A stretch of DNA of 35,719 nt, taken from NCBI GenBank assembly GCA_003671275.1, contig QWPB01000182.1, positions 1-35,719 of the forward strand, written 5' to 3'. Source of the DNA: Planctomycetota bacterium. GTDB lineage: Bacteria > Planctomycetota > Planctomycetia > Planctomycetales > Planctomycetaceae. Numbering within the stretch: position 1 is the stretch's first letter; each line of letters opens with the position of its first letter. Under the pieces are notes generated by a model. That model did no database searches and had not been told where the DNA came from. It saw only the letters and a list, made by a program, of their open reading frames with translations. Of this stretch, positions 14,851-34,344 are shown piece after piece. A program made the translations under genes and the position numbers.

Positions 14851-16140
14851 TCAAGCGGGTGCAATCATCTTCCGCAGCCGCTCTAGAGCCGTCTCGCGAT
14901 CCCGCAGTTCACCGTTCAGCTGGGCATCTCGTAGCGTATCCAAAATCTCTTTGAAGCGTGGTCCCGGACGAAGTCCAGACTCGATCAGATCGCGCCCGCT
15001 GACGAGTTCCGGAGGATGGATCTGTTCATGGGAATGTTCCGCGAGGTAGGCATCGATAAAATCGGATGACAGCTGTGAGGCTCCCCGGGATGCGGCAAGG
15101 GCCCGCACCAGATGCCGAAGATCTGTTGCCAGTGGATGAGCCAAAATACGCTTTAGCTGGGCATCTGTCTGAAGGATTGCCGTGTGCCACTGGTTCTGGT
15201 GACTGACAAGCCACGCAATCGATTGCATCTCATGCACTGAAAGTTTGAGACGGCGGGCGATATCCCAGACAGTTCCGGCGGCTTCCTGGCGGGTGCGTGG
15301 TTCGTGCGGCGTCGCCGGAAGGGTGTGCCACATGGCTGCGGCGGCCAGTTCGAAGCGGGCGCACTTCGGCAGCACCGCCAACACCGCGGCTGCGGGCTGC
15401 GTTTCGTTTGTCAGCTCGGGAAACAGGACTGGGAGCAACCCGGTCTCGCTCATCAACTCGAATCCGCGAGCCCGCTGCGGGTGAGCCAGAACGCGGCGAA
15501 GTTCCTGGGCAATCCGCTCCGCACTGACCACCTGAATTTCGCCCGCCATCTGACGCACGGCGTCGCGTGTCTGCGGATCGAGTTCAAACTCCAGTGTCGC
15601 GGCGAACCGGACCGCCCGCAGCATTCGCAGTTTGTCCTCGGTCATCCGTTCGAGGGGATCGCCGATCGCCCGCAGCCGACGTACTTCAATATCTGCCTGC
15701 CCTCCCACGAAGTCCAGCACCCGCTGCTCCAGCGGGTCGTAGAACATTCCGTTGATCGTGAAATCCCGGCGGCGGGCGTCTTCTTCCGGCGTGGCAAAGG
15801 TGACTTGACTCGGGCGGCGACCATCGTGATATGGACCTTCGGTGCGAAAGGTGGCGACCTCCACCGGCTCCGCGCCCGGGACGGTCGGTAACACAACAAT
15901 GACTCCGAAGCTGGCCCCCACTGACAGCGTTCGCTTCTTGCCGAACAGCGTGCGTACGTGCTCGGGGGGGGCACTCGTGGCGACATCATAATCCTTTGCC
16001 CGCTGCCCCATCAGCAGGTCTCGCACGCATCCCCCGGCCCAATAGGCGACAGCCCCTGCCGCTCGCAGTTGGCGGACAACATCGATCGCGAACTCGCGCG
16101 AGGCAGTGGATTCACCAGAGAGGGGGAAGACGGAACTCAA
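14851..16140 (-). CDS. cca: CCA tRNA nucleotidyltransferase / poly(A) polymerase family
   Basis: This 429-residue class II nucleotidyltransferase would add or repair the 3'-CCA of tRNA in the cytoplasm. Motifs in order: GGCVRD (36-41), the metal-binding DYD in DYDVAT (50-55), RRRDFTINGM (123-132) and RAVRFA (175-180), followed by a helical body and tail domain. The start is TTG at 16140, six bases after AAGGA. It overlaps the stop of the upstream HlyD gene by TTGA, so translation is probably coupled to the export cluster. Poly(A) polymerase and A-only adding enzymes share the same motifs and cannot be excluded. The coupling of a housekeeping tRNA enzyme to an envelope operon is unusual. Confidence 0.9.
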   Translation of the reverse strand: MSSVFPLSGESTASREFAIDVVRQLRAAGAVAYWAGGCVRDLLMGQRAKDYDVATSAPPEHVRTLFGKKRTLSVGASFGVIVVLPTVPGAEPVEVATFRTEGPYHDGRRPSQVTFATPEEDARRRDFTINGMFYDPLEQRVLDFVGGQADIEVRRLRAIGDPLERMTEDKLRMLRAVRFAATLEFELDPQTRDAVRQMAGEIQVVSAERIAQELRRVLAHPQRARGFELMSETGLLPVLFPELTNETQPAAAVLAVLPKCARFELAAAAMWHTLPATPHEPRTRQEAAGTVWDIARRLKLSVHEMQSIAWLVSHQNQWHTAILQTDAQLKRILAHPLATDLRHLVRALAASRGASQLSSDFIDAYLAEHSHEQIHPPELVSGRDLIESGLRPGPRFKEILDTLRDAQLNGELRDRETALERLRKMIAPA

Positions 16141-17486
16141 GGCGCGTCCTTGTATCGCAACCAGACACCATGCACGACCCGATCACTCGGGAAGATGACG
16201 ACTCGGTCGTTCTCCGCCAGGCCATCGAGCACCTCGGCAAAGTCCGAGTTGTGATGCCCAATTTTCACAGTCTTACGCAGAGCTTTGCCCTCAGCGTCGG
16301 AGGTAAACACGGACCAGTCCCGATCATGGCGGAACAAGGCGCTCATCGGCACTCGCAGGACATTCGCTCGGTCCCAAGTCACGATTCGGGCTTCGAATCG
16401 GAACCGATCGCCAAAATGATCCGGAACGGGTGAAACCAGATCCCCAATCACATTGACCCGCTGCTCCTCCACGCCCAGTGCCGAAACTTTGGTAAATGCG
16501 CCCGGCTCAATCAACCGGACCTGTGCCTCCAGCACGCCGTCACCGCCCCAGTGTTCAATATGCATGTGGGCCCCCGGAGTGATCCGAACGGCATCCGTCG
16601 AAAGGACATCGATTTCCAGTTCAATGTCTCGCGGGTCACCAATCTCGATCAGAGGAGCCCCCGGTGCTACGACCGCCGCGCTTTCCTGAAAGACCCGGAG
16701 GACCTTACCTTGAATCGGAGCGACCAGATCCAGATGCCATTCGGGAGCGTCCGTGCTGTCATTGGGCTGGGTCCGCAGGAGCGAACTCTGGGCAACTTCC
16801 AGCTCAAAGGAGGCGATCTCCCGGGCGACATTGGCGGAACGATGCTCCTCCGTTCGCACCCGGTAATTGGTATTGGCATCCTCAACTTCCTGGTCAAAGG
16901 AGGCATCCCCCAACCGCAGACGCATGCGGCGGTCCAGCTGGGATTGGGCCGATTCCATCGCCGCCCTGGACGCTTCGGCATTGGCATCGGCTCGGCGGAC
17001 GGCAGCTTCGGCAGCCTTCACGCGGGCCTCGGCGGCGGTGCGATTGCGCGGGTCCAGCAGGTCAGGATTCGTTGGCAGGATAGTGGCCAGTAACGTTTGT
17101 CCCGCCACGAGCGGATCGCCGGGCTTCAGAATGACCCGCTGCAACTGCCCTGCCAACGGGGCCGACACCACGTACTTCTCGCGAATCCGCGTGCGACCAT
17201 CTTCGTTCACGGTCACTTCCAGAGGGCCACGCGTTACAACGGCGCCATCCACCTCGACCGGCTGTGGTCGAAACGAAAAACCGATCGCCACCAGAATGGC
17301 CCCCGCGATCAGCCACGTGATAACTCTCCGGACCCACACCATGTCATCGATCTTTACACCGGGATTCCGCCCGGTCGGTGGTTCGGCTGTCACACAACCG
17401 GATGGCCCAACTTCCCAGGACACCGCAATCGTCGTGGAAGGTTCACCGACTTCCGCCAAGGATTGATCTTCCTGGAAATCCCGCAC
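16137..17486 (-). CDS. HlyD-type periplasmic adaptor (second in cluster)
   Basis: This is a 449-residue membrane-fusion protein if translated from GTG 17486. ATG 17342 (401 residues) is an alternative that begins just before the membrane anchor (VRRVITWLIAGAILVAIGF). Lipoyl/barrel-sandwich halves are visible as YVVSAPLAGQLQRVILKPGD and LDLVAPIQGKVLRVFQES, split by a ~100-residue alpha-hairpin rich in Ala, Arg and Glu. A beta-barrel region with VNVIGDLVSPVP and RVPMSALFRHDRDW follows. Such adaptors bridge an inner-membrane pump and a TolC channel. No pump gene is present nearby; the neighbours are TolC (165 bp upstream) and CCA nucleotidyltransferase, which overlaps its stop. The GTG start has only a weak ribosome site. 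Confidence 0.87.
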   Translation of the reverse strand: MRDFQEDQSLAEVGEPSTTIAVSWEVGPSGCVTAEPPTGRNPGVKIDDMVWVRRVITWLIAGAILVAIGFSFRPQPVEVDGAVVTRGPLEVTVNEDGRTRIREKYVVSAPLAGQLQRVILKPGDPLVAGQTLLATILPTNPDLLDPRNRTAAEARVKAAEAAVRRADANAEASRAAMESAQSQLDRRMRLRLGDASFDQEVEDANTNYRVRTEEHRSANVAREIASFELEVAQSSLLRTQPNDSTDAPEWHLDLVAPIQGKVLRVFQESAAVVAPGAPLIEIGDPRDIELEIDVLSTDAVRITPGAHMHIEHWGGDGVLEAQVRLIEPGAFTKVSALGVEEQRVNVIGDLVSPVPDHFGDRFRFEARIVTWDRANVLRVPMSALFRHDRDWSVFTSDAEGKALRKTVKIGHHNSDFAEVLDGLAENDRVVIFPSDRVVHGVWLRYKDAP

Positions 17487-17651: not shown

Positions 17652-19673
17652 TCAGGGCGTTGTCATAGGGGCCGTCGGCGATTCTGGAGGCAGTGTTTCG
17701 GTTTCGAGCGGCACTTCACCGAGTGGCGTGGCTGCGGGTAAGGGCGACAATGACAGCGGAATGAATGCATCCATGGGCGAATGCAGGGTGGGAGAACCAG
17801 CTCCTGGCTGTGGAGCCCTTCCGAACATCACCCCACGCAACTGCAAAAGTTGCCCCGTGCGATACTCGACCTGAGTGGTGCCCAGGGAATATTCGACCTG
17901 TCGCCGAAGAAAATCAGTCTCGGCATCCGTCAGCATTTGACGAGCCCGGTTGATACCATCCAATGACAGGTAGGCCCGTCCGTCACGATTCGAGTTGTAC
18001 TCCTCTTCGGCGGCGACCAGCCGCTGCTGGGCGTTCTCAACAATCGCCGCCTGTTTCCGCATCGCCTTGTACTGGCGATCCAGATCGTTAAACGCCTGTG
18101 TGAGTTGGTGCAGGACATCCATCTCCTGAGCTTCCAGGGTGCGAATCGCCTTAGTGAGCTTCAGTTCCTGATTCTTCACCTGGGTCTGGGCGAACCGCAT
18201 GCCCAGCGGCTGGGAATACTCGGCCCCGATGTTCCAGCCGTTCTCCGTTCCGTTGAACAGGCGATGATAAGCACTGCCCAGCGGACGGTTGGTCCCATCC
18301 GTATGTCGAGCCCCCATCAGGTCGTCTCCGAAGGCGTTGGACTGCCCGCTGAGCAGGAAGTCGAGACGGGGCCGGTTCAGATTCTCGGCGGCTTTTAATT
18401 GCAACTGGGCACTCTTGATGGCGAGTTTTTGCTTGCGCAGCTCCGGGCGACTGGACATTGCGATCCCGAGAGACAGATCCCAATTGGGATCGATCTCGGC
18501 CACCACGGGACGGTCGAGTGGGCGGATCAGAACATTCGCGTCGACCATGACGCTCATGATGTTCCGCAGGGCGATCTCCGCCGTGAAAATCCCATCCCAC
18601 GCCTCTTCCACGGCCGCTTCCGCCTGCAGAACCCCCTCCTGGGCTTCGACGTAATAGGAGAGATCCCCCCCGGGGCTGCCTTTTCGGTCCTTGACCAAAT
18701 CAAAAATCTGTTGTGCCTGCAGCAGGCTTAACTGCCGCAGCTCGTAAGATTCATAGGCCACATAGAGCTGCCAATAGTGGTTTTCGACTTCGCGAATGAA
18801 CTCGGCAACCGCCAGTTCGAAGTCGAGTAACGACTGGTCATTATTGATTCGGGCAATCAATAATCCCTGCTGCACTCCGGTAACGCCTTGGATATTCTCG
18901 GAGATCGGTCCCGCGATGGCTGTGTACTCTTCTCCCGCCCCGGCCAGCAAAGGCTGGCGAAATTCGACGCGGACGTTGCCGTCATAGACTGATGGAAACA
19001 GCCGACCGGGCGCGTTGCTGGAGGAATAATTGATATTGTGGCTCAATCCGATCTGTCCACCCGATTCAAGAGACTTCTGCAGGACCGCCTGGAACTGGGT
19101 GGTGTCTTCCACCAGAGGTAGACCGGCGGGAACGCCTCCCGACGTGAACTGGTTATTTTGGATTTGTGAGCTGTTTCCCCAGAGCATGCGAGTTGTGAAC
19201 TGCGTATCAAATTCCGAGAGGGCGGCATGCACGCCGCGCTGTCCAAACAGCACCCCCGATTCCTGAATGGCCTGGTCGTAAATCGAGGCGACACTTTCGG
19301 GTGAACGCAATAACGGATTCCCCGGCGACAAGAAGTCTCCGTTCTGTCGGATGACTTGCGCATGAGAAAGTGCTTCAAAGATGACATCCTGCAGCGTCAT
19401 CTCCCGAAACGTCGTTTCTTCGTAACTTGCCGGACAGATCGGTTCCTGGGCCATCAAGACCGACGACGGGGCCAGAACCTCCTCCTGGGCATACAAAAAT
19501 TCATCATCCAACGTGCTTGCAACAGATTGCGGGAGGTACTCGGACTCCCAGTAATTGGCCGGACGGAGGTATCGGCATCCCTGTTGATGCAACATCCCCC
19601 ACATCGCCAGGCAGGCGACGAATGCCCGCCAGCGACCGCGCGGACGCAGCCGTGGGATGATTTCCCCCCTCAT
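17652..19673 (-). CDS. TolC-family outer-membrane efflux protein
   Basis: This 673-residue protein begins with an export signal (FVACLAMWGMLHQQGC); the Cys could be lipidated but the lipobox is weak. After a ~70-residue linker come two TolC-like repeats. The first holds MTLQDVIFEALSHAQVIRQN and, further on, REVENHYWQLYVAYESYELR. The second has the family's typical SRPELRKQKLAIKSAQLQLK and AENLNRPRLDFLLSGQ, later LTQAFNDLDRQYKAM, ending in YRTGQLLQLRGVMFG. A Pro-rich tail closes the protein. It should form a trimeric barrel and periplasmic tunnel for export. It is longer than classical TolC because of its N- and C-terminal extensions. It lies between the M50-HlyD fusion (101 bp upstream) and an HlyD adaptor on the same strand. 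Confidence 0.88.
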   Translation of the reverse strand: MRGEIIPRLRPRGRWRAFVACLAMWGMLHQQGCRYLRPANYWESEYLPQSVASTLDDEFLYAQEEVLAPSSVLMAQEPICPASYEETTFREMTLQDVIFEALSHAQVIRQNGDFLSPGNPLLRSPESVASIYDQAIQESGVLFGQRGVHAALSEFDTQFTTRMLWGNSSQIQNNQFTSGGVPAGLPLVEDTTQFQAVLQKSLESGGQIGLSHNINYSSSNAPGRLFPSVYDGNVRVEFRQPLLAGAGEEYTAIAGPISENIQGVTGVQQGLLIARINNDQSLLDFELAVAEFIREVENHYWQLYVAYESYELRQLSLLQAQQIFDLVKDRKGSPGGDLSYYVEAQEGVLQAEAAVEEAWDGIFTAEIALRNIMSVMVDANVLIRPLDRPVVAEIDPNWDLSLGIAMSSRPELRKQKLAIKSAQLQLKAAENLNRPRLDFLLSGQSNAFGDDLMGARHTDGTNRPLGSAYHRLFNGTENGWNIGAEYSQPLGMRFAQTQVKNQELKLTKAIRTLEAQEMDVLHQLTQAFNDLDRQYKAMRKQAAIVENAQQRLVAAEEEYNSNRDGRAYLSLDGINRARQMLTDAETDFLRRQVEYSLGTTQVEYRTGQLLQLRGVMFGRAPQPGAGSPTLHSPMDAFIPLSLSPLPAATPLGEVPLETETLPPESPTAPMTTP

Positions 19674-19774: not shown

Positions 19775-22006
19775 CTACAAGCGGAACCGAAACAGCGTTT
19801 GCAGATACCGCCAAATCCATTCGGCCAGTGAGCGGTTCTCCGGAAAGAATCGGGCGTTTCCTCGCATTCCGTTTCGCAGCAATGATTTATCGCACGAGAG
19901 CGGCGCAATGGCCTGATAGGTAATGCTGGTCAGTTTTTCCCGTCCCTGTTCATCAGAAACGGTCACCAAGGGGCCCTGGAACCGATTCGATAGCCCCTGA
20001 GGCGCGTATTCCAGATGCCGATGCGAGATCTCCGTCAGCCGTGAACTGAAGGTTTCTGCCGGTAGCTCCTCCAGCTTGAGCCGAACTTGACCAACAACGC
20101 CATCCGTTCGCAGTTCTTCCCGTTCCGTCTGATCCATCACAAGGACGGCCTGATACTCTGAAGAAGGAGCCACGGTCCCGATCTGCGTTTGCGTTTCGAG
20201 ATAGCCCCCCCGATTCCGATGGGCGGTGGGAACACTCGTCCAGCCGACCAGCCGCTCGCGTTCCTGCTCCAGGGTGGTTGCCGGAACCCGTGGCGGAGCC
20301 AGCCAGATGCCCGCCACAGGAGCGGTGACGGTCAACCGCCCCAGCAACTCATCGCTCTGTGCCAGCTTTCGCCGAGCCGAGGCCAATTTCTCTTGAGCCA
20401 CTGCCACTGCGGCGGGGTCCCGCTGACTGCTGGCTGACTTGAGTGCCACTTCGGCCACATTTAACTCAATGCGGGCCTGGTCCCGCTGGGCATCCAGCTC
20501 GGGATTCGACAGGGTCAGGATTACCTGGCCAGCAGTTACCGGATCGCCGGGCTGAACCGGTTGCGTCTCGATAAAACCTGGAACCTGGGTGTAGACGTGC
20601 ATGGCTCCAGCAGGTTCCACATAGAACGGGGCCTCGATGTACCAAGGGAACTCCATGAAGCAGATCAGGTAACCCAACACCCCCAGCAGCAGGGCGGACA
20701 CGGCCATCCGGGGCCGGCTGATTGAGTCTCGTCGCGGCTGTGAGATCAGCTTGTAGGTATTCCACAGGAACCCGCTCAGCGAGATCAGAATGGTCACGAT
20801 CGCCATGAGTACCCCCAAGCTCTGGAGCCGATACGGCTTGAGCACCGTGTAGAAGAACATAATGATCCCGGCAAAGACCATCCATCGGTAAATCGCCGAT
20901 GCCATCACATACGCAAAGAACCAGAACCGCCCGTGATCCGGCAGAAAGGCGGGGGCGGGCAGTTCAATCCCCAGACAGACCTTGGCCAGAACTCGCTGGG
21001 TAATCTGGTCCGCCTTCTGCCGCAGGTTGGGAATCTCCAGCAGATCCGACAGCATGTAGTAGCCATCGTACTTCAGCAGCGGATTCGCGTTGAAGATGAC
21101 CGTGGAAACCGTGGAGACAAAGAACGTATTGAGGCACAGGTAGTGCAGCATCCCCGGTTCGGTGTTCCACCAGACGATCAAAGCCAGCGTTGACAAGATG
21201 ACCTCAAAGTACATCCCGGCAGCACCAATCATGATCCGCTGCCACTTGTTCTTGAGCATCCATGAGTCGGTCACGTCGCAATACATTGTGGGACTGAAGA
21301 CCAGCAACATGACGCCGATCGAGTGACACTCGCTGCCGTAATACTTGCACGACAGCCCGTGCCCCAGTTCGTGAATCACCTTAATGAGCGCCAGTATGCT
21401 CCACAGATAAATCAGATTCGGCCACCCGAAGAACCGCTGAAACTCCGGAATCTGCTTCTGGACCTCGGCAAATCGCGACGCCAGAAACAACAGGGCAATC
21501 CCCACAGCTGACAACAGAGTGACAATCACGGCAGGCCGGAAGATCCATCCGACTACGGGCAGGGCCGCTTGCAGAAATCGCTCGGGGTCCCAGCCTGGCA
21601 ATTGAATCGTTAAGGGGTTCCGCAAGACGGAAATGATTTTCTTGCGGACGGCGTCGCGATGGGACTTGAGCAGTGCGGGGCCCTGCCCCAGTCGCAAGGC
21701 CACCAGCAGTGTCTTTTCCTGCAGATCGATTACCAGCCCCTGGATATCCACGAGTGAAAAGTGTTCCGTCGGGAACAGCGTCTGCACCTGCTCCCGAATC
21801 CCCCGCAGACTATTCTCACCGTTGAGCCGATCCAGCACGGCGAACTGTTCCGGGGACAACTGATGGTACTTCAGGCCGATGGGGTCCTTGATGACGGCAT
21901 GGTTCACGCCGCGATACTTGATCCACTCGATGGCCAGATCCTCCCGCTTCCGATACGGGATCGGGCGGTCAAATGAGGTTCCGGAGTCAGCAGTTTTGAC
22001 TTGCAT
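19775..22006 (-). CDS. M50 metalloprotease-HlyD fusion with PqqD-like N-terminus
   Basis: This 743-residue polytopic protein has three parts. Residues ~30-105 resemble PqqD (DPIGLKYHQLSPEQFAVLDR, LNGENSLRGI), a peptide-binding winged helix. Residues ~145-460 form a site-2-protease-like membrane core with the zinc motif HELGH (212-216) and a distal NPLLKYDGYY (308-317), the usual third-ligand segment. Residues ~460-740 are an HlyD-like adaptor: first lipoyl half GAMHVYTQVPGFIETQPVQPG (467 on), a coiled-coil hairpin ~503-555, and second half RLTVTAPVAGIWLAPP. The active-site residues are intact. It lies 45 bp after one HlyD gene and 101 bp before TolC. A peptide-handling export or processing role is inferred; the substrate is unknown. 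Confidence 0.88.
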   Translation of the reverse strand: MQVKTADSGTSFDRPIPYRKREDLAIEWIKYRGVNHAVIKDPIGLKYHQLSPEQFAVLDRLNGENSLRGIREQVQTLFPTEHFSLVDIQGLVIDLQEKTLLVALRLGQGPALLKSHRDAVRKKIISVLRNPLTIQLPGWDPERFLQAALPVVGWIFRPAVIVTLLSAVGIALLFLASRFAEVQKQIPEFQRFFGWPNLIYLWSILALIKVIHELGHGLSCKYYGSECHSIGVMLLVFSPTMYCDVTDSWMLKNKWQRIMIGAAGMYFEVILSTLALIVWWNTEPGMLHYLCLNTFFVSTVSTVIFNANPLLKYDGYYMLSDLLEIPNLRQKADQITQRVLAKVCLGIELPAPAFLPDHGRFWFFAYVMASAIYRWMVFAGIIMFFYTVLKPYRLQSLGVLMAIVTILISLSGFLWNTYKLISQPRRDSISRPRMAVSALLLGVLGYLICFMEFPWYIEAPFYVEPAGAMHVYTQVPGFIETQPVQPGDPVTAGQVILTLSNPELDAQRDQARIELNVAEVALKSASSQRDPAAVAVAQEKLASARRKLAQSDELLGRLTVTAPVAGIWLAPPRVPATTLEQERERLVGWTSVPTAHRNRGGYLETQTQIGTVAPSSEYQAVLVMDQTEREELRTDGVVGQVRLKLEELPAETFSSRLTEISHRHLEYAPQGLSNRFQGPLVTVSDEQGREKLTSITYQAIAPLSCDKSLLRNGMRGNARFFPENRSLAEWIWRYLQTLFRFRL

Positions 22007-22051: not shown

Positions 22052-22984
22052 TTACAACGAGCGGAGCAACATCCGGGCGGGCAATCCTTCCCGCAGCTTG
22101 CCGTGGGCGTTGTCAACCTCGGCCCAGATGCGAACCCTCAAGGATGAGGGGTCTACCGTCGGGTCGATGAACTTCAACTGTGTCTCGTATTTTTCGGTAA
22201 CCACGGTTTGATCGGGGCCGGGAAAGTCGACGAGGAGTGTCACCGGAATCCCGACTTTCAGACGTGGGGCAATCGCCAGATCGATCTCCGCCTCAACACG
22301 AATCCGGCGGGTCGAGACGATCTCTACTACCGTTTCCCCGACCTGTACACCTTCTCCGGTCTGCTTGAAGGCGCGTGTCACCAACCCATCACGAGGGGCC
22401 TTGACCTCGAGGGAATCAAGTTCGGCCTGGGCTTGGTCACGAGCCCGTTCGTTGACGGCATGTTCTTTGACAAACCGCTCAATCTCGATCGTGGCGGACT
22501 CGCTGGCCAACCGCAATCGATCAATGGCAGTTTGAGGGTAAACCGGGTTCGCAGTTTTGGGGTTCCGTTCATTCGCCGCTTTCGCCGCCTGGTACTCCAG
22601 CGTGGCGGCTTCGGCCTGCTTGCGGGCGGAGTCAATCTCCGCCTGATTGAGAACCCGTGCCGCCGCGACCGCCACCGCCGCTGCCGCTGTCTCATTCCTG
22701 AGCCGCGCGATGACCTGCCCGGCGGTCACCGATTCGGCTTCCTCCACCACGAACTGCAAGACGCCGGGGCGGTCAAAGGTGATCTCATGTCGATCGACGA
22801 ACGTCAGGGCCACCTGATCTTCAATTTTGTCGAGCAGAATCTCCACTCCGACCGACGGCGGCGGGACCGGAGACTTGGCGACGGAAAGCCCCGGGGACTT
22901 CTCCTGTCCATGCAGTGCCCACGCCCCCCCCAGGCTGAGGGCGATTGTCAGAGCCAGAGGCCATCGACTCGAAACACGCGGCAT
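22052..22984 (-). CDS. HlyD-type periplasmic adaptor (first in cluster)
   Basis: ATG 22984, preceded by AAGGGAG at good spacing, gives 310 residues; the frame extends to 23206 but that part would run into the divergent GAF-HlyD gene. A signal peptide is seen (RWPLALTIALSLGGAWALHGQ). Residues ~60-300 form a compact membrane-fusion protein: ITFDRPGVLQFVVEEAESV, VTAGQVIARLRNE, an Ala-rich helical hairpin, LEVKAPRDGLVTRAFKQTGE and a beta-barrel with IPVTLLVDFPGPDQ. It should work in the periplasm as an adaptor for export. It is the first gene of the minus-strand group and is followed after 45 bp by the M50-HlyD fusion. Confidence 0.87.
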   Translation of the reverse strand: MPRVSSRWPLALTIALSLGGAWALHGQEKSPGLSVAKSPVPPPSVGVEILLDKIEDQVALTFVDRHEITFDRPGVLQFVVEEAESVTAGQVIARLRNETAAAAVAVAAARVLNQAEIDSARKQAEAATLEYQAAKAANERNPKTANPVYPQTAIDRLRLASESATIEIERFVKEHAVNERARDQAQAELDSLEVKAPRDGLVTRAFKQTGEGVQVGETVVEIVSTRRIRVEAEIDLAIAPRLKVGIPVTLLVDFPGPDQTVVTEKYETQLKFIDPTVDPSSLRVRIWAEVDNAHGKLREGLPARMLLRSL

Positions 22985-23113: not shown

Positions 23114-25174
23114 ATGGCGGAGGCGAATCGATTTGGCGAATGGCTGGCGCGCGCCCGTCAGATCGGCGATCAAACCCGCGCCGCGGCACAACAGCCGCCG
23201 ATTCAACGTGCAAATCTCTTTCTAGAAGGTATTGCCGACGGCCAGATTCTCACGGCGGCGCTGCTTTGGACCGTCTCCTCCGAGCAACGGATTACGCCCG
23301 CGTCGGGGGGCGGTGTCTCTCGAATCTCGACATCGGACGGGGCTCTGAATCTGGACCCGACTCATTTAGATGCAGTGCGTGCCGCCTTCGGTGGGCAAAA
23401 ACCGCCGCTCGGCGCCTGGAAATCGGCGGGTGGCATCTCGCTCGTCCGAATTGTTCGGTCGGTCATCGTTCAACCACCCATCCCCCTGGTTGTGGAACTT
23501 TTCTTCCCTCCGGAGATTGCCCGGGACCGATCTGCGATCGAACTCGCGACCGACGAAGTGGTGGCCCTGCTTTCCCGTTCGATCTCCACGAAGCCCGTCG
23601 CTGCGGGCGCTCCGACCGCTGCAGACACGCTGAATTCCGACTTCTGGAAGCGAATGGACCAGTTTGGACTCGCTTTGCAGCGAAGCCTGTCGATTGCGGA
23701 TGTCGCCATGGTGGCGGCCAATGATGGGCGTGTCCTGCTGGAATGTGATCGCGTCAGCATTGCCATGAAGCATGGCCCCCGAGCCCGGATTGCCGCATGC
23801 AGCGGGCAAGAAAGCATCCAGCAGAGGGCCAATCTGATTCACCAGATGTCTCGGCTGGCGAATGCCGTTTGCGAACTCGGCGAGCCGGTCGTCTATCGCG
23901 GAACACAGGAAGGCTTTCCTGCCTCGTTTGCCGAACCACTGGCCAAGTATCTGGAGGAGAGCCGGTCGCGGATGGTCGGGCTCTATCCACTCCGCGAGAA
24001 CTTGCCCCACCATCAGGTGGAACAGGATCTCGCCGATCAGAAACGGATCAGTGCGGGCGCGGTCATTGGCTGTTTGATCGTGGAGCAGTCCACGGAAAGT
24101 GATCCCCAGCCGGCGGTGATCCAGCGTGTTCCTCTGTTAATCGATCATGTGTCCGCCGCGCTGAGCAACGCCCGGCACCAGGAGTCGATCTTTCTGCTGC
24201 CGCTGTGGCGGACCATCGGACGGACGCTGGGCTGGTTCCGGGGACGCCGTCTGGCGATTACGCTTGGGATACTGGCTGCGATGGGATTGCTGATTGGTGT
24301 ATTGGCCACCGTTCCCTGGGAATATCGCGTTGAAGCCTCGGGTCGGGCCATGCCGGTCGAGCAACACGATCTGTTCGCTCCGTGGGATGGTGTCGTGGTG
24401 CAGGTCCTGGTCGAAAATGGACAGACCGTCAAGCAGGGTCAGGAACTGCTGACCATTCGCAGTGATGATCTCGATACCGAGCTGCTGGCTGCGGAGAATG
24501 CCCGCGATGAACGCACCCAGCGGATCGCCGCCCTGATTCAGCAAAGTCGAGTCGCCGAACGCAACAACCAAAAGGAAGAATCGCTGCGTCTGACTTCCGA
24601 AATGCGAACCGCCGAGATCGAGCGAGCGGGAGCCGAACTGCAGATTAAGAAGTATCAGGAACGGAAAGCCGCACTGCAGGTTCGGTCTCCCATCAATGGC
24701 GTCGTGGCCTCATTCCAGGTGACTCAGAACCTGCTCGATCGTCCTGTGCGGCGCGGCGACCGGCTGATCGAAGTCATGAACGTCGATGGCCCCTGGCGGC
24801 TGGAACTGGATGTTCCCGAATACCGCATGGGGCACTTGCTGCATCGCATTGCTTCAGTAACCGGCCAGCCCGCACCGTCGCCCCATGAACCCCGTCACCT
24901 GCCCACATCCGGGCAGCTGACGGTCGATTACATCGCAGCCACGGCGGCCTCCCAGAAGCACCAGGGCCAGCTGATCGAGGTCGGCACCCGCTCCAATGAA
25001 TCACAGGAAGAAGGCACCGTGGTCGAATGTCACGTGCGGATCAATCCGGACGATCTTCCCGGACGCCGCATCGGAGCGGAAGTCACAGCCAAGATTCACT
25101 GCGGAGAGCAGAGCCTGGGGTACGTGCTGTTTGGCGATGTGGTGGAGTTCATTCAGCGAAAAGTGTGGTGGTAA
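23114..25174 (+). CDS. GAF-domain HlyD fusion, membrane-anchored adaptor
   Basis: ATG 23114, six bases after AAGGAA, gives 686 residues. The frame stays open from 22208 but that stretch is antisense to a well-supported HlyD gene, so I reject it. Residues ~1-165 are cytoplasmic and of unknown fold. Residues ~185-355 look like a GAF sensor (LQRSLSIADVAMVAANDGRV at the start, then GAVIGCLIVEQ and VPLLIDHVSAALSNARH). A membrane helix (~379-399) follows. The periplasmic HlyD part shows HDLFAPWDGVVVQVLVENGQ (418 on), a charged coiled coil (452-520) and VRSPINGVVASFQ. So the adaptor carries its own cytoplasmic sensor. It diverges from the M50/TolC operon and is probably the partner of the M50-HlyD protein. 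Confidence 0.85.
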   Translation: MAEANRFGEWLARARQIGDQTRAAAQQPPIQRANLFLEGIADGQILTAALLWTVSSEQRITPASGGGVSRISTSDGALNLDPTHLDAVRAAFGGQKPPLGAWKSAGGISLVRIVRSVIVQPPIPLVVELFFPPEIARDRSAIELATDEVVALLSRSISTKPVAAGAPTAADTLNSDFWKRMDQFGLALQRSLSIADVAMVAANDGRVLLECDRVSIAMKHGPRARIAACSGQESIQQRANLIHQMSRLANAVCELGEPVVYRGTQEGFPASFAEPLAKYLEESRSRMVGLYPLRENLPHHQVEQDLADQKRISAGAVIGCLIVEQSTESDPQPAVIQRVPLLIDHVSAALSNARHQESIFLLPLWRTIGRTLGWFRGRRLAITLGILAAMGLLIGVLATVPWEYRVEASGRAMPVEQHDLFAPWDGVVVQVLVENGQTVKQGQELLTIRSDDLDTELLAAENARDERTQRIAALIQQSRVAERNNQKEESLRLTSEMRTAEIERAGAELQIKKYQERKAALQVRSPINGVVASFQVTQNLLDRPVRRGDRLIEVMNVDGPWRLELDVPEYRMGHLLHRIASVTGQPAPSPHEPRHLPTSGQLTVDYIAATAASQKHQGQLIEVGTRSNESQEEGTVVECHVRINPDDLPGRRIGAEVTAKIHCGEQSLGYVLFGDVVEFIQRKVWW

Positions 25175-25307
25175 CCTCAGTTCGAAAAATATCTCGGCTC
25201 GGGAAATACTTGAATTGCGGCCTCCGTACCCGGCACAGTTGACCCCAGCCGCATCCCGGGGACAATCCGTGCTCTGCGGAATTACCCCCTTGTTCTGGAG
25301 CTGAATG

Positions 25308-25703
25308 ATGTCGGCGACTGTTGTCGAAGAAGTGTTGGCCGCCAGCCGGAAGTTGCTGGCCAGTATCGATGCGGGAAACTGGGCCGAGTATGTGAAGCTG
25401 TGTGACGAATCGATCACCTGCTTCGAGCCGGAAGCTCTGGGCCATCTGGTCTCGGGCCTGCCGTTCCACAAATTCTATTTCGATCTCCCTGCCAGTGGTC
25501 CGCCGTCGCCCAAGTTGTCATCAATGGCTTCGCCCCATGTGCGAGTGCTGAGTGAGACATCGGCGGTTGTGACCTACGTGCGTCTGGTACAGAAACTGGA
25601 CTCCCACGGTTCGCCCGTCACGGTTTCGGGGATGGAGACCCGTGTGTGGCAAAAGTTCGGCGACGTGTGGAAGCATGTGCATTTCCACCGCATGCCCTGC
25701 TAA
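25308..25703 (+). CDS. CaMKII association-domain-like protein
   Basis: This 131-residue cytoplasmic protein has two adjacent ATG codons (25305 and 25308); GGAG lies seven bases before the second. It closely follows the pattern of the CaMKII association domain (PF08332): ITCFEPEALGHLVSGL (36-51), FHKFYFDL (53-60), PHVRVL (76-81), YVRLVQ (90-95), ETRVW (110-114) and WKHVHFH (121-127). In animals this domain assembles CaM kinase II into rings; bacterial stand-alone copies belong to the SnoaL/NTF2-like superfamily and their role is unknown. No signal peptide is present. It sits 133 bp downstream of the GAF-HlyD gene and could share its transcript. A hairpin follows its stop. Confidence 0.85.
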   Translation: MSATVVEEVLAASRKLLASIDAGNWAEYVKLCDESITCFEPEALGHLVSGLPFHKFYFDLPASGPPSPKLSSMASPHVRVLSETSAVVTYVRLVQKLDSHGSPVTVSGMETRVWQKFGDVWKHVHFHRMPC

Positions 25704-32225: not shown

Positions 32226-34016
32226 TCAGGCGTCCTGCAGTTCCTCGCTCAGTTCGCACCATTTCTCTTCAGCAACGGTCAGTTGCGCGGTGATGGCGGT
32301 CAGTTCCTCGTGGACCTTCATCGCCTGCTTGGCGTCGGCGGTGTTGAGCATTTGCTCGTTGAGCTTCTTCTTCTCATCGTCGAGGCGGGCGATGAGCTTT
32401 TCGGTCGTGTTGAGCTCTTTGCGGATCTCGCGTTCGTTGCGGCGGGCGGCTTGTGGCACGGCTTTGGCAGCAGCCTTGCCCGCCGGGATCGGGGCCTTGG
32501 ACATTTTCGAGGCCAACTCCCGCTCTCCGTCCTCGATCTCCTTATTGACCGAGTACAGGTACGCTTCGTAGTCGCCGTGGTAGTTCACCACACTGCCGTT
32601 ACGAACCTCGATGATGTGGGTCGCAACCCGCTTCATGAAGTGCCGGTCGTGGCTCGTGAAGATCACCGTCCCCTTGTACCCCAGCAAGGCCTCGGCCAGT
32701 GAATCGACGGTATCCACGTCCAGATGGTTACCCGGTTCGTCGAGGATCAGGATGTTGCACTGGCTGAGCATGACCCCGGCCATACAGAGCCGCGCCCGCT
32801 CGCCCCCCGAGAGGACGGAAATCTTCTTGTAAACCGCATCCCCCCGGAACAGCAGCGAGGCCGCCGCGTTCAGGATTTCCTGCGTCTTGGCCCCCAGCGG
32901 AGCATGCTGCTCCAGGTATTCATACACCGTCTGCTTTTCGGGCAGGCTGGTATAAACGTGCTGAGCGTAAACCCCGACCTTGCAGCCGTGGCCCCAGCGG
33001 ACTTCGCCCGAAACCGGGGCGAGGGAGTCCACCAGCGTACGCAGAAAGGTCGTCTTTCCCTGTCCGTTGTCCCCCACGATCGCCGCGCGGCTTCCGTGGT
33101 CAACATCGACGGTAATATCCTTGGCAATCGCCCGCTCGGCGTACCCGATGGCCAGGTCCACGCAGCGGAGGGCCGTGCCCTTGCGAGGTTCGACCAGCGG
33201 AGCGCGAATCGAGACGGTCGGCTCATCGGCCTCGATCTCGTTAATTTCGAGGCGTTCGAGCTGCTTGGTCTTGTTGCGGGCCTGGGCGGCGGTACTGGCG
33301 CGGGCCTTATTCTTGGCGATGAAAGTTTCGAGCTGCTTCATCTTCATCTGAACGGTCGCGTTGGTCCGTTCGAGGCGTTCCTTGTGCTCCTTCTCGTACT
33401 CCAGAAAGGCATCGATCTTGCCGGGGAACATCGTGAGCTTGCCGCGTGACAAGTCCAGAGTCTGGGTGCAGGTGGCCCCGAGAAAGGCCCGATCATGCGA
33501 CACGATCAGGCACGCTTCCTTGTAGTTCCGCAGGAAGTGCTCCAGGAGGATTTGGGTGCGCAAGTCGAGGAAGTTTGTTGGTTCGTCGAGCAGCAACAAA
33601 TTCGGATCGTGCAGCAGTAGTGCGGCCAACTTCACGCGGGTCTGCCATCCGCCGGAGAGCTTCGATACCGGGCCGTCGAGGTAGTCGCCCTTGATCTCGA
33701 ACTGGCCCGCGACTTCTCCGCACTTCCAATCGGGCTGACCGCTGTCCCGCATCAGGAATTCCATCGAGGTCTCCCCCGGCAGAAACGGGTCATGCTGCCG
33801 CAAATACCCCAACCGCAACCGGGGATGACGAATCACCTCGCCGCGTTCGAGCTCTTCCTCACCGAGGAGAACCTTGAGCAGGGTCGATTTACCCGCCCCG
33901 TTGCGTCCGACAAAGCCGACTTTGACGTCATCGGTAATCGACGCTTCTGCACCATCCAACAGGACTTGCGCCCCATAGCTCTTGTGGGCATCCCGAATCT
34001 GCAACAACACTGCCAT
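32226..34016 (-). CDS. ABC-F family ATPase (ribosome-associated type)
   Basis: From ATG 34016 this gives 596 residues; the frame stays open to 34229 but that part looks like leader. There are two ABC domains and no membrane segments. Domain 1: Walker A GRNGAGKST (37-45), signature LSGGW (120-124), Walker B LLLDEPTNFLD (141-151). The ~220-290 linker (KMKQLETFIAKNKARA) is the P-site tRNA-interaction motif of ABC-F proteins. Domain 2: GDNGQGKTT (315-323), LSGGERARL (402-410) and LDEPGNHLD (425-433), where Gly replaces the usual Thr. A charged coiled-coil tail (~505-596) closes it. Such proteins act on the ribosome in translation or antibiotic protection; which applies here is unknown. The leader has a 16-bp palindrome. 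Confidence 0.9.
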   Translation of the reverse strand: MAVLLQIRDAHKSYGAQVLLDGAEASITDDVKVGFVGRNGAGKSTLLKVLLGEEELERGEVIRHPRLRLGYLRQHDPFLPGETSMEFLMRDSGQPDWKCGEVAGQFEIKGDYLDGPVSKLSGGWQTRVKLAALLLHDPNLLLLDEPTNFLDLRTQILLEHFLRNYKEACLIVSHDRAFLGATCTQTLDLSRGKLTMFPGKIDAFLEYEKEHKERLERTNATVQMKMKQLETFIAKNKARASTAAQARNKTKQLERLEINEIEADEPTVSIRAPLVEPRKGTALRCVDLAIGYAERAIAKDITVDVDHGSRAAIVGDNGQGKTTFLRTLVDSLAPVSGEVRWGHGCKVGVYAQHVYTSLPEKQTVYEYLEQHAPLGAKTQEILNAAASLLFRGDAVYKKISVLSGGERARLCMAGVMLSQCNILILDEPGNHLDVDTVDSLAEALLGYKGTVIFTSHDRHFMKRVATHIIEVRNGSVVNYHGDYEAYLYSVNKEIEDGERELASKMSKAPIPAGKAAAKAVPQAARRNEREIRKELNTTEKLIARLDDEKKKLNEQMLNTADAKQAMKVHEELTAITAQLTVAEEKWCELSEELQDA

Positions 34017-34344
34017 GATCGAACCTGTCCCGAATCGTCGACGATTCCCCGCCTGACCGTCGCCTGCCGGGGAAATGAGAGGCGAACAGTGTATCGGGTG
34101 AGCATCCTCCTGAGGAGGTTTGCGACCGCCCTTCCTGCGGCAACGCTCTTTGTGAAGTTGGGAGACTCTTTTCTCACCGAAAACTAATGGCTGAATACTG
34201 ATGGCCCACGCACGGTGAATACAGTGCATGGCCGTAGGTGGAGAGGCCTCCTCTTCTGCCGTTGCGTTCGGTTCGATAGGCTATGGCAGGATGGCGGAAC
34301 TTCACGCCAAGACCGCACTGGGCACCATGAGGATTCACGCAACG
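34017..34344. other. Divergent intergenic region with palindromes
   Basis: About 330 bases separate the ABC-F and YceH starts. Three inverted repeats stand out: the 16-bp palindrome at 34032-34047, TTCCCCG/CGGGGAA (34045-34051 with 34068-34074) and CCTCC-TGA-GGAGG (34106-34118). Both flanking genes could start further into this region, so part of it may be coding. Confidence 0.4.
34032..34047. promoter_or_regulatory. 16-bp perfect palindrome in ABC-F leader
   Basis: GAATCGTCGACGATTC reads the same on both strands and lies 16 to 31 bases before the ABC-F ATG. A dimeric regulator site or a short leader stem are the plausible roles; the next stem (34045-34074) overlaps its edge, so the two could be alternative structures. 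Confidence 0.45.

Follow-up and report, generated by a model that had tools for sequence, protein, structure and literature searches.

The locus of interest lies in a 35,719-nucleotide stretch of DNA from a Planctomycetota bacterium (contig QWPB01000182.1; hereafter, the window), and it raises the question of what a PqqD-like domain is doing at the front of a protein that joins an M50 membrane protease to an exporter-like half. An initial annotation placed the domain at minus-strand positions 21692–21919 (residues 30–105 of open reading frame 19775–22006, a segment containing KDPIGLKYHQLSPEQFAVLDRLNG), described the protease core as intact, and hinted that the domain recognizes a leader peptide or unfolded tail before cleavage or export.

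The two larger parts of the fusion protein are as that annotation described them. Both hallmarks of Peptidase M50—an HExxH motif (HELGH, at residue 212) and a second, aspartate-containing motif (NANPLLKYDGY, at residue 306)—are present, and the exporter-like half is matched by HlyD domains at residues 469–567 (Pfam HlyD_3 at 474–536; HlyD_D23 at 469–567, below its cut-off). Judged from its sequence, the protease looks live, because H212, E213, H216 and D314 are invariant in an alignment of 36 family members; R21, P42 and L95 of the N-terminal part likewise show no variation in that alignment, and D41, L61 and G63 hardly any. A crude hydropathy scan, which does not settle the topology, gives about eight membrane segments. 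A full-length AF2 model (four sequences) reached a pLDDT of 42 and was used only for the order of strands and helices at the N-terminus. The coordinates of these features, and of the neighbouring genes, are collected in Table 1.

Table 1. The fusion protein, its parts and the genes around it, in positions of the window.
Feature	Positions	Strand	Basis and remarks
PqqD/RRE - Peptidase_M50 - HlyD fusion, 743 aa	19775..22006	-	ATG start; ORF, Pfam M50 + HlyD, 36-member alignment
PqqD/RRE-like winged-helix domain (predicted), residues ~14-105	21692..21967	-	AF2, Foldseek, VIA, profile
HELGH zinc-protease core, residues 212-216	21359..21373	-	H, E, H invariant in 36/36 aligned
NANPLLKYDGY, second M50 motif, residues 306-316	21059..21091	-	D314 invariant in 36/36
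HlyD/membrane-fusion half, residues ~455-740	19787..20644	-	Pfam HlyD_3, HlyD_D23; ends approximate
HlyD-type adaptor	22052..22984	-	ORF reaches TTG at 23206, ATG at 22984 likelier; homologue in 19/24 other context loci
Homologue of GAF-HlyD protein, divergent	23114..25174	+	ORF opens 22208, likely start near 23114; HlyD domains; homologue in 19/24 other context loci
TolC-type outer-membrane factor (OEP)	17652..19673	-	Pfam OEP; homologue in 6/24 other loci
Further membrane-fusion protein (MacA/RND-like)	16137..17486	-	Module membership uncertain; no homologue listed in 24 other loci

The PqqD-like domain was confirmed by profile, AF2 and structure comparison, with one correction: it begins earlier than first placed, near residue 14. 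At E ≤ 1, the Pfam PqqD model (PF05402) misses the window protein; it matches 25 of the 36 aligned family members at that threshold (best, 1e-7), and its curated cut-off is passed by a paralogue on contig C50 of the same genome (31.1 versus 23.4 bits). When the N-terminal domains of all 36 members were searched as a profile against the PDB, PqqD (3g2b) came first (E = 0.0025) and TfuB1, the B1 protein of a lasso-peptide system, third (0.0078), with an apparently false match to saporin in second place and weaker PqqD and TbiB1 chains further down, among unrelated matches. A phmmer search of the PDB with the whole fusion protein returned nothing useful. The AF2 model of the N-terminal domain alone (four sequences; pLDDT 81, pTM 0.71) runs from strands through three helices to a short strand, and thus falls within the winged-helix PqqD/RRE group rather than outside it. 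Foldseek ranks PqqD (5sxy) and TfuB1 (6jx3_B) as the top two matches to this model, each with a probability of 1.00 and with E-values of only 0.011 and 0.022, respectively. By VIA, the best structural match is TfuB1 (Z 9.2), followed by TbiB1 (8.9), 5sxy (7.5) and 3g2b (5.8); these scores are to be read beside those of methyltransferase domains (7.2–8.6) and winged helices that bind DNA (6.9 at most), and beside the program's warning that a Z below 8 may reflect merely a common arrangement. On sequence and structure together, the N-terminal domain is predicted to be a PqqD/RRE fold, and the resemblance to PqqD exceeds chance. Some relatives of the fusion already carry the NCBI label "PqqD family".

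The genes of the module that surrounds the fusion are separated by gaps of 45–165 nt. Classical ABC type I secretion has an ABC exporter at the locus; there is none here, the sole ABC match being a distant protein with two ABC_tran matches (32226–34229). Nor was a SecA-like gene found, either among the window ORFs scanned with Pfam or in the similarity clusters. Directly after the divergent HlyD gene, positions 25305–25703 encode a CaMKII association-domain protein (E = 1.9e-34).

A module of this kind was described by Kamneva, Poudel and Ward (2015; PMC4452313), who report that secondary SecA_DEAD proteins adjoin M50/HlyD, HlyD and GAF-HlyD proteins, sometimes together with OEP, and that the SecA-like gene is adjacent or elsewhere in the genome. 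The paper calls the broader role of the module "completely unknown" and names no cargo in its abstract or in sections 16 and 17; the term PqqD is absent from its main text. Shared between the published module and the window are the M50 and HlyD protein and its HlyD partner. The SecA-like gene of the window genome is not adjacent, lying on another contig as in cases that the paper reports, and the third protein has HlyD domains and homologues at most other context loci (Table 1), with no Pfam match to GAF at E ≤ 1. Among the matches listed, the fusion (E ≤ 1e-20) occurs in 67 of 294 Planctomycetota genomes. A SecA-like gene is present in eight of 25 context loci, and a short SecA-like frame lies within 10 kb of 25 of the 103 M50-fusion places among the matches listed (28 if three longer frames are included). 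Of the 42 genomes for which a short SecA-like frame is listed, 38 have the fusion; the list comprises frames of up to 781 aa at 52 places, some of them possibly pieces of ordinary SecA cut off where a contig stops. The three SecA-like proteins from these loci that were scanned (L043:5949-7856, L047:13861-15774 and L055:8266-10302) have no SecA_SW match at E ≤ 0.1, and so may depart from the usual cooperation with SecY. A gene of ~100 codons for a DUF3467 protein recurs in Planctomycetota loci (L049 by Pfam, L046 and L051 by similarity); its product is a possible chaperone or signal-reading partner.

To this previously described module, the present analysis adds a candidate cargo: large exoproteins with an N-terminal LExRxLL motif. 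In the first planctomycetal loci, the only two called genes with the motif encode large proteins with LESR-LL near the start, at two module loci. Since the motif appeared in only these two called genes, co-occurrence was analysed genome-wide, with LEPR-8K (NF012209) as the marker. LEPR-XLL proteins are known as a domain family, including an ~8000-aa Vibrio protein with LEPR-XLL at its N-terminus and RTX at its C-terminus (PMC10868602); that they are cargo is proposed here. LEPR-8K matches 36 of the 294 genomes at E ≤ 0.05, 35 of them above its cut-off. Among the matches listed, the fusion (E ≤ 1e-20, a cut of our own choosing) is found in 33 of the 36 LEPR-positive genomes and in 34 of the 258 other Planctomycetota genomes (Fisher p = 1.3e-21). 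Kinship between genomes is handled only in part, by repeating the test per family (19/20 versus 10/72, p = 1.5e-11; matches listed). The corresponding counts are 33/36 versus 85/258 (p = 9e-12) at the loosest fusion cut (E ≤ 0.001), and 33/35 versus 34/259 when only LEPR matches above the cut-off are taken. As a control, PEP-CTERM, an unrelated exoprotein signal, was treated in the same way: the fusion is in 32 of 114 genomes with, and 35 of 180 without, it (p = 0.09; matches listed), while LEPR itself co-occurs weakly with PEP-CTERM (22/36 versus 92/258, p = 0.006; matches listed). LEPR and the fusion are also neighbours more often than expected, with eight of the 114 LEPR matches listed lying within 10 kb of a fusion versus 0.95 under a random placement that ignores contig breaks. 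Three LEPR-positive genomes lack the fusion, and 34 of the 67 fusion-bearing genomes lack a LEPR-8K match (among the matches listed).

The Fisher tests rest on NF012209 and are independent of a wider motif model (A6), which was made after the plasmid leaders described below were known and whose matches serve as illustration; genome G024 has the fusion and no match with this wider model. As background, across 364 ORFs of at least 300 aa in the loci under study, a similar motif near the frame start was seen in ten; seven of these ten are large frames of the cargo type that either are included in the counts given here or adjoin a fusion. A hydropathy scan of 18 LExR proteins for Sec signals found no strongly hydrophobic stretch in 15, the remaining three reaching 1.59–1.83; the window HlyD protein, with its signal-peptide-like start, scores only 1.83 itself, so that such a scan could miss Sec signals. 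No literature linking LEPR-XLL or PqqD to an M50-HlyD exporter was found in a search that left most subscription journals and bioRxiv outside its range.

Relatives of the fusion are also carried by plasmids. From 77 plasmid records with a relative, 16 loci were analysed, chosen for genus spread and, for the first six, partly by label. All 16 relatives at these loci are recognized by the profile built from the planctomycetal N-termini, with E-values between 8e-24 and 5e-7, against 0.99 for the best of 80 shuffled N-termini. HExxH is present in every one of these fusions, and the second M50 motif in ten by a strict pattern and in 15 by a looser one, Thalassospira being the exception. At 15 of the 16 loci, a large LExR gene lies 1.8–5.4 kb from the fusion; the 1412-aa neighbour of the Phyllobacterium fusion is without the motif. 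Thirteen of the 15 leaders fit [LMIF]-E-x-R-x-[LMFV]-[LMFV], and the other two (Pseudohalocynthiibacter and Cupriavidus) differ by one Tyr; in Alisedimentitalea, the motif is in frame, directly upstream of the annotated start. On three plasmids, LEPR-XLL is annotated beside the fusion, in proteins of ~4,000–12,900 aa by gene length. The genes that separate the fusion from the LExR gene at annotated loci are DUF3467, HlyD, adaptor or TolC (in Azospirillum lipoferum, also a toxin-antitoxin pair), and in Tistrella the LExR frame is on the opposite side of the fusion, 4.4 kb away. DUF3467 is annotated at five plasmid loci (L098, L100, L102, L103 and L113) and recognized by similarity at L109.

The plasmid leaders fall into two classes, named after the sequences had been inspected: (i) nine LLxAD-type leaders, from the eight of 16 loci that have a SecA-like gene by the fusion plus Thalassospira, and (ii) six xFDAA-like leaders, from the other loci with a leader (YDAA in Cupriavidus, FDGAA in E. 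coli). In the tree of the fusions, a branch with 100/100 support separates the two classes. Leader class follows protease clade in the plasmid loci, and this match is a single split, that is, one event and not repeats.

Within the window itself there is no LExR gene. The window genome contains three fusions and one SecA-like gene, with no match to the five window module proteins in the 20 kb around the SecA-like copy, and the wider motif model gives six matches in this genome at E ≤ 0.5, all outside the window. One of the six is in a 3751-aa frame with the motif FEDRQVL (L125, L038; G000 contig C50, 9445–20697), ~1.6 kb from the paralogous C50 fusion; an array of short plus-strand ORFs beside the same paralogue is an artefact, namely the opposite strand of this frame. 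Contig C101 (L126), on which no fusion was detected, carries a head-to-head pair of LExR frames (2132 and 804 aa). A DNA pattern for LExRxLL was also tried in the window genome and dropped as too coarse (15 matches versus 23 for the reversed control). Genome G266 encodes a close relative of the window protein (47% identity), with an LExR protein ~5.2 kb away from it, immediately beyond TolC.

RREs take RiPP leaders as an added beta strand. From the fold, the protease motifs, the module and the LExR association, we infer how binding, topology, energising, cleavage and export might proceed: (i) on the cytosolic side, the LExRxLL leader at the N-terminus of a large exoprotein would be captured by the RRE, probably by adding a beta strand to it, (ii) the short SecA-like ATPase, where present, would drive the chain, (iii) the membrane part of the M50 protein would pass the chain on to the HlyD half of the fusion, and to the HlyD partners and TolC, and (iv) the M50 site may cut the leader. 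Where no SecA-like gene lies near the fusion, the RRE and LExR proteins are both retained, which leads us tentatively to favour the fusion over the motor as leader reader. On balance, it seems probable that the domain is an RRE that receives the substrates of an ABC-less machine by which giant surface proteins are secreted. Evenly poised, in our judgement, is the broader proposition that LExRxLL is a general N-terminal export signal of such proteins, received by the RRE in an ABC-less, sometimes SecA-like-driven pathway with a membrane protease core, which would extend from Planctomycetota to Alpha-, Beta- and Gammaproteobacteria, E. coli plasmids included.

Association by itself would look the same whether the receptor is the RRE or a different component of the module. 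Winged helices serve as docking modules too, and the domain could have a docking or regulatory place within the machine while the LExR leader is read by the SecA-like ATPase, DUF3467 or HlyD; SecA-like genes stand by the fusion at half of the plasmid loci, and DUF3467 recurs at six of the 16 and in Planctomycetota. This arrangement is possible but rather unlikely, given that seven plasmid loci with LExR genes are without a SecA-like gene within up to 15 kb on each side (5 kb in E. coli), and that the RRE is found in all 16 plasmid fusions. Less likely still is a change of function in the clade of the window, where the module would now serve small-molecule or lipid efflux, or proteolysis in the envelope, and retain the RRE as a relic. 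The LExR protein near the fusion of G266 and the invariant and nearly invariant residues of the RRE part argue against such a change, even though the window copy escapes the Pfam PqqD model, the window has no LExR gene, and about half of the fusion-bearing genomes have no listed LEPR-8K match.

The proposal that the domain recognizes a leader before cleavage or export stands in part: the RRE fold and, indirectly, the association of the family with LExRxLL exoproteins support it, but the locus does not look like a RiPP system. A RiPP cluster would combine a modifying enzyme with a short precursor nearby; the 18 window ORFs scanned with Pfam include no RiPP enzyme, and the gaps within the module span 45–165 nt. 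The nearest named M50 family is the daptide protease MpaP (NF041824), which scores 182.2 bits against the fusion, below the curated 300, and in the C50 paralogue begins at residue 47, inside the RRE (31–367 of 379); YydH/LiaK (NF058609) scores 50.6 bits, below the curated 225. These NCBIfam scores and the PqqD fold speak for a protease-exporter in RiPP maturation, of the daptide, YydH/LiaK or lasso-like kind, with a short precursor that was overlooked. With both cut-offs missed, no RiPP enzyme in the scanned ORFs, such short gaps, and large exoproteins adjoining relatives of the fusion, we consider such a system highly improbable; the leader likely belongs to very large proteins rather than to short genes.

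The preferred reading, an RRE that receives the leaders of giant exoproteins, sets the fusion apart from the systems that it most resembles. PqqD serves PqqA and PqqE in cofactor synthesis; the window domain is like PqqD (5sxy, 3g2b) in fold and profile, but no such cofactor gene is among the 18 window ORFs scanned. In lasso-peptide systems the RRE is described as activating the leader protease (PMC10885120). The lasso protease is of the cysteine type and acts on short precursors, whereas the window RRE shares one chain with an M50 membrane protease and HlyD. If true, this reading would extend RRE domains beyond peptide natural products: a hallmark of the latter would gain a possible part in protein secretion, a module described in 2015 as having no known role would gain a testable cargo, signal and receptor, and the LEPR-XLL family, named for its N-terminal motif, would gain a proposed export route.

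Several of the plasmid loci show further features. On E. coli plasmid NZ_CP081687.1 (L118, L119), a 13.4-kb Ig-like gene that starts with LESRQLFDGAA is followed by TolC, an RND adaptor, HlyD and the M50-HlyD fusion, with no SecA-like gene in the stretch read. SapC-family genes occur in two plasmid module loci (L101, L104), and in Variovorax (L117) a series of gsp genes for type II secretion comes after the module.
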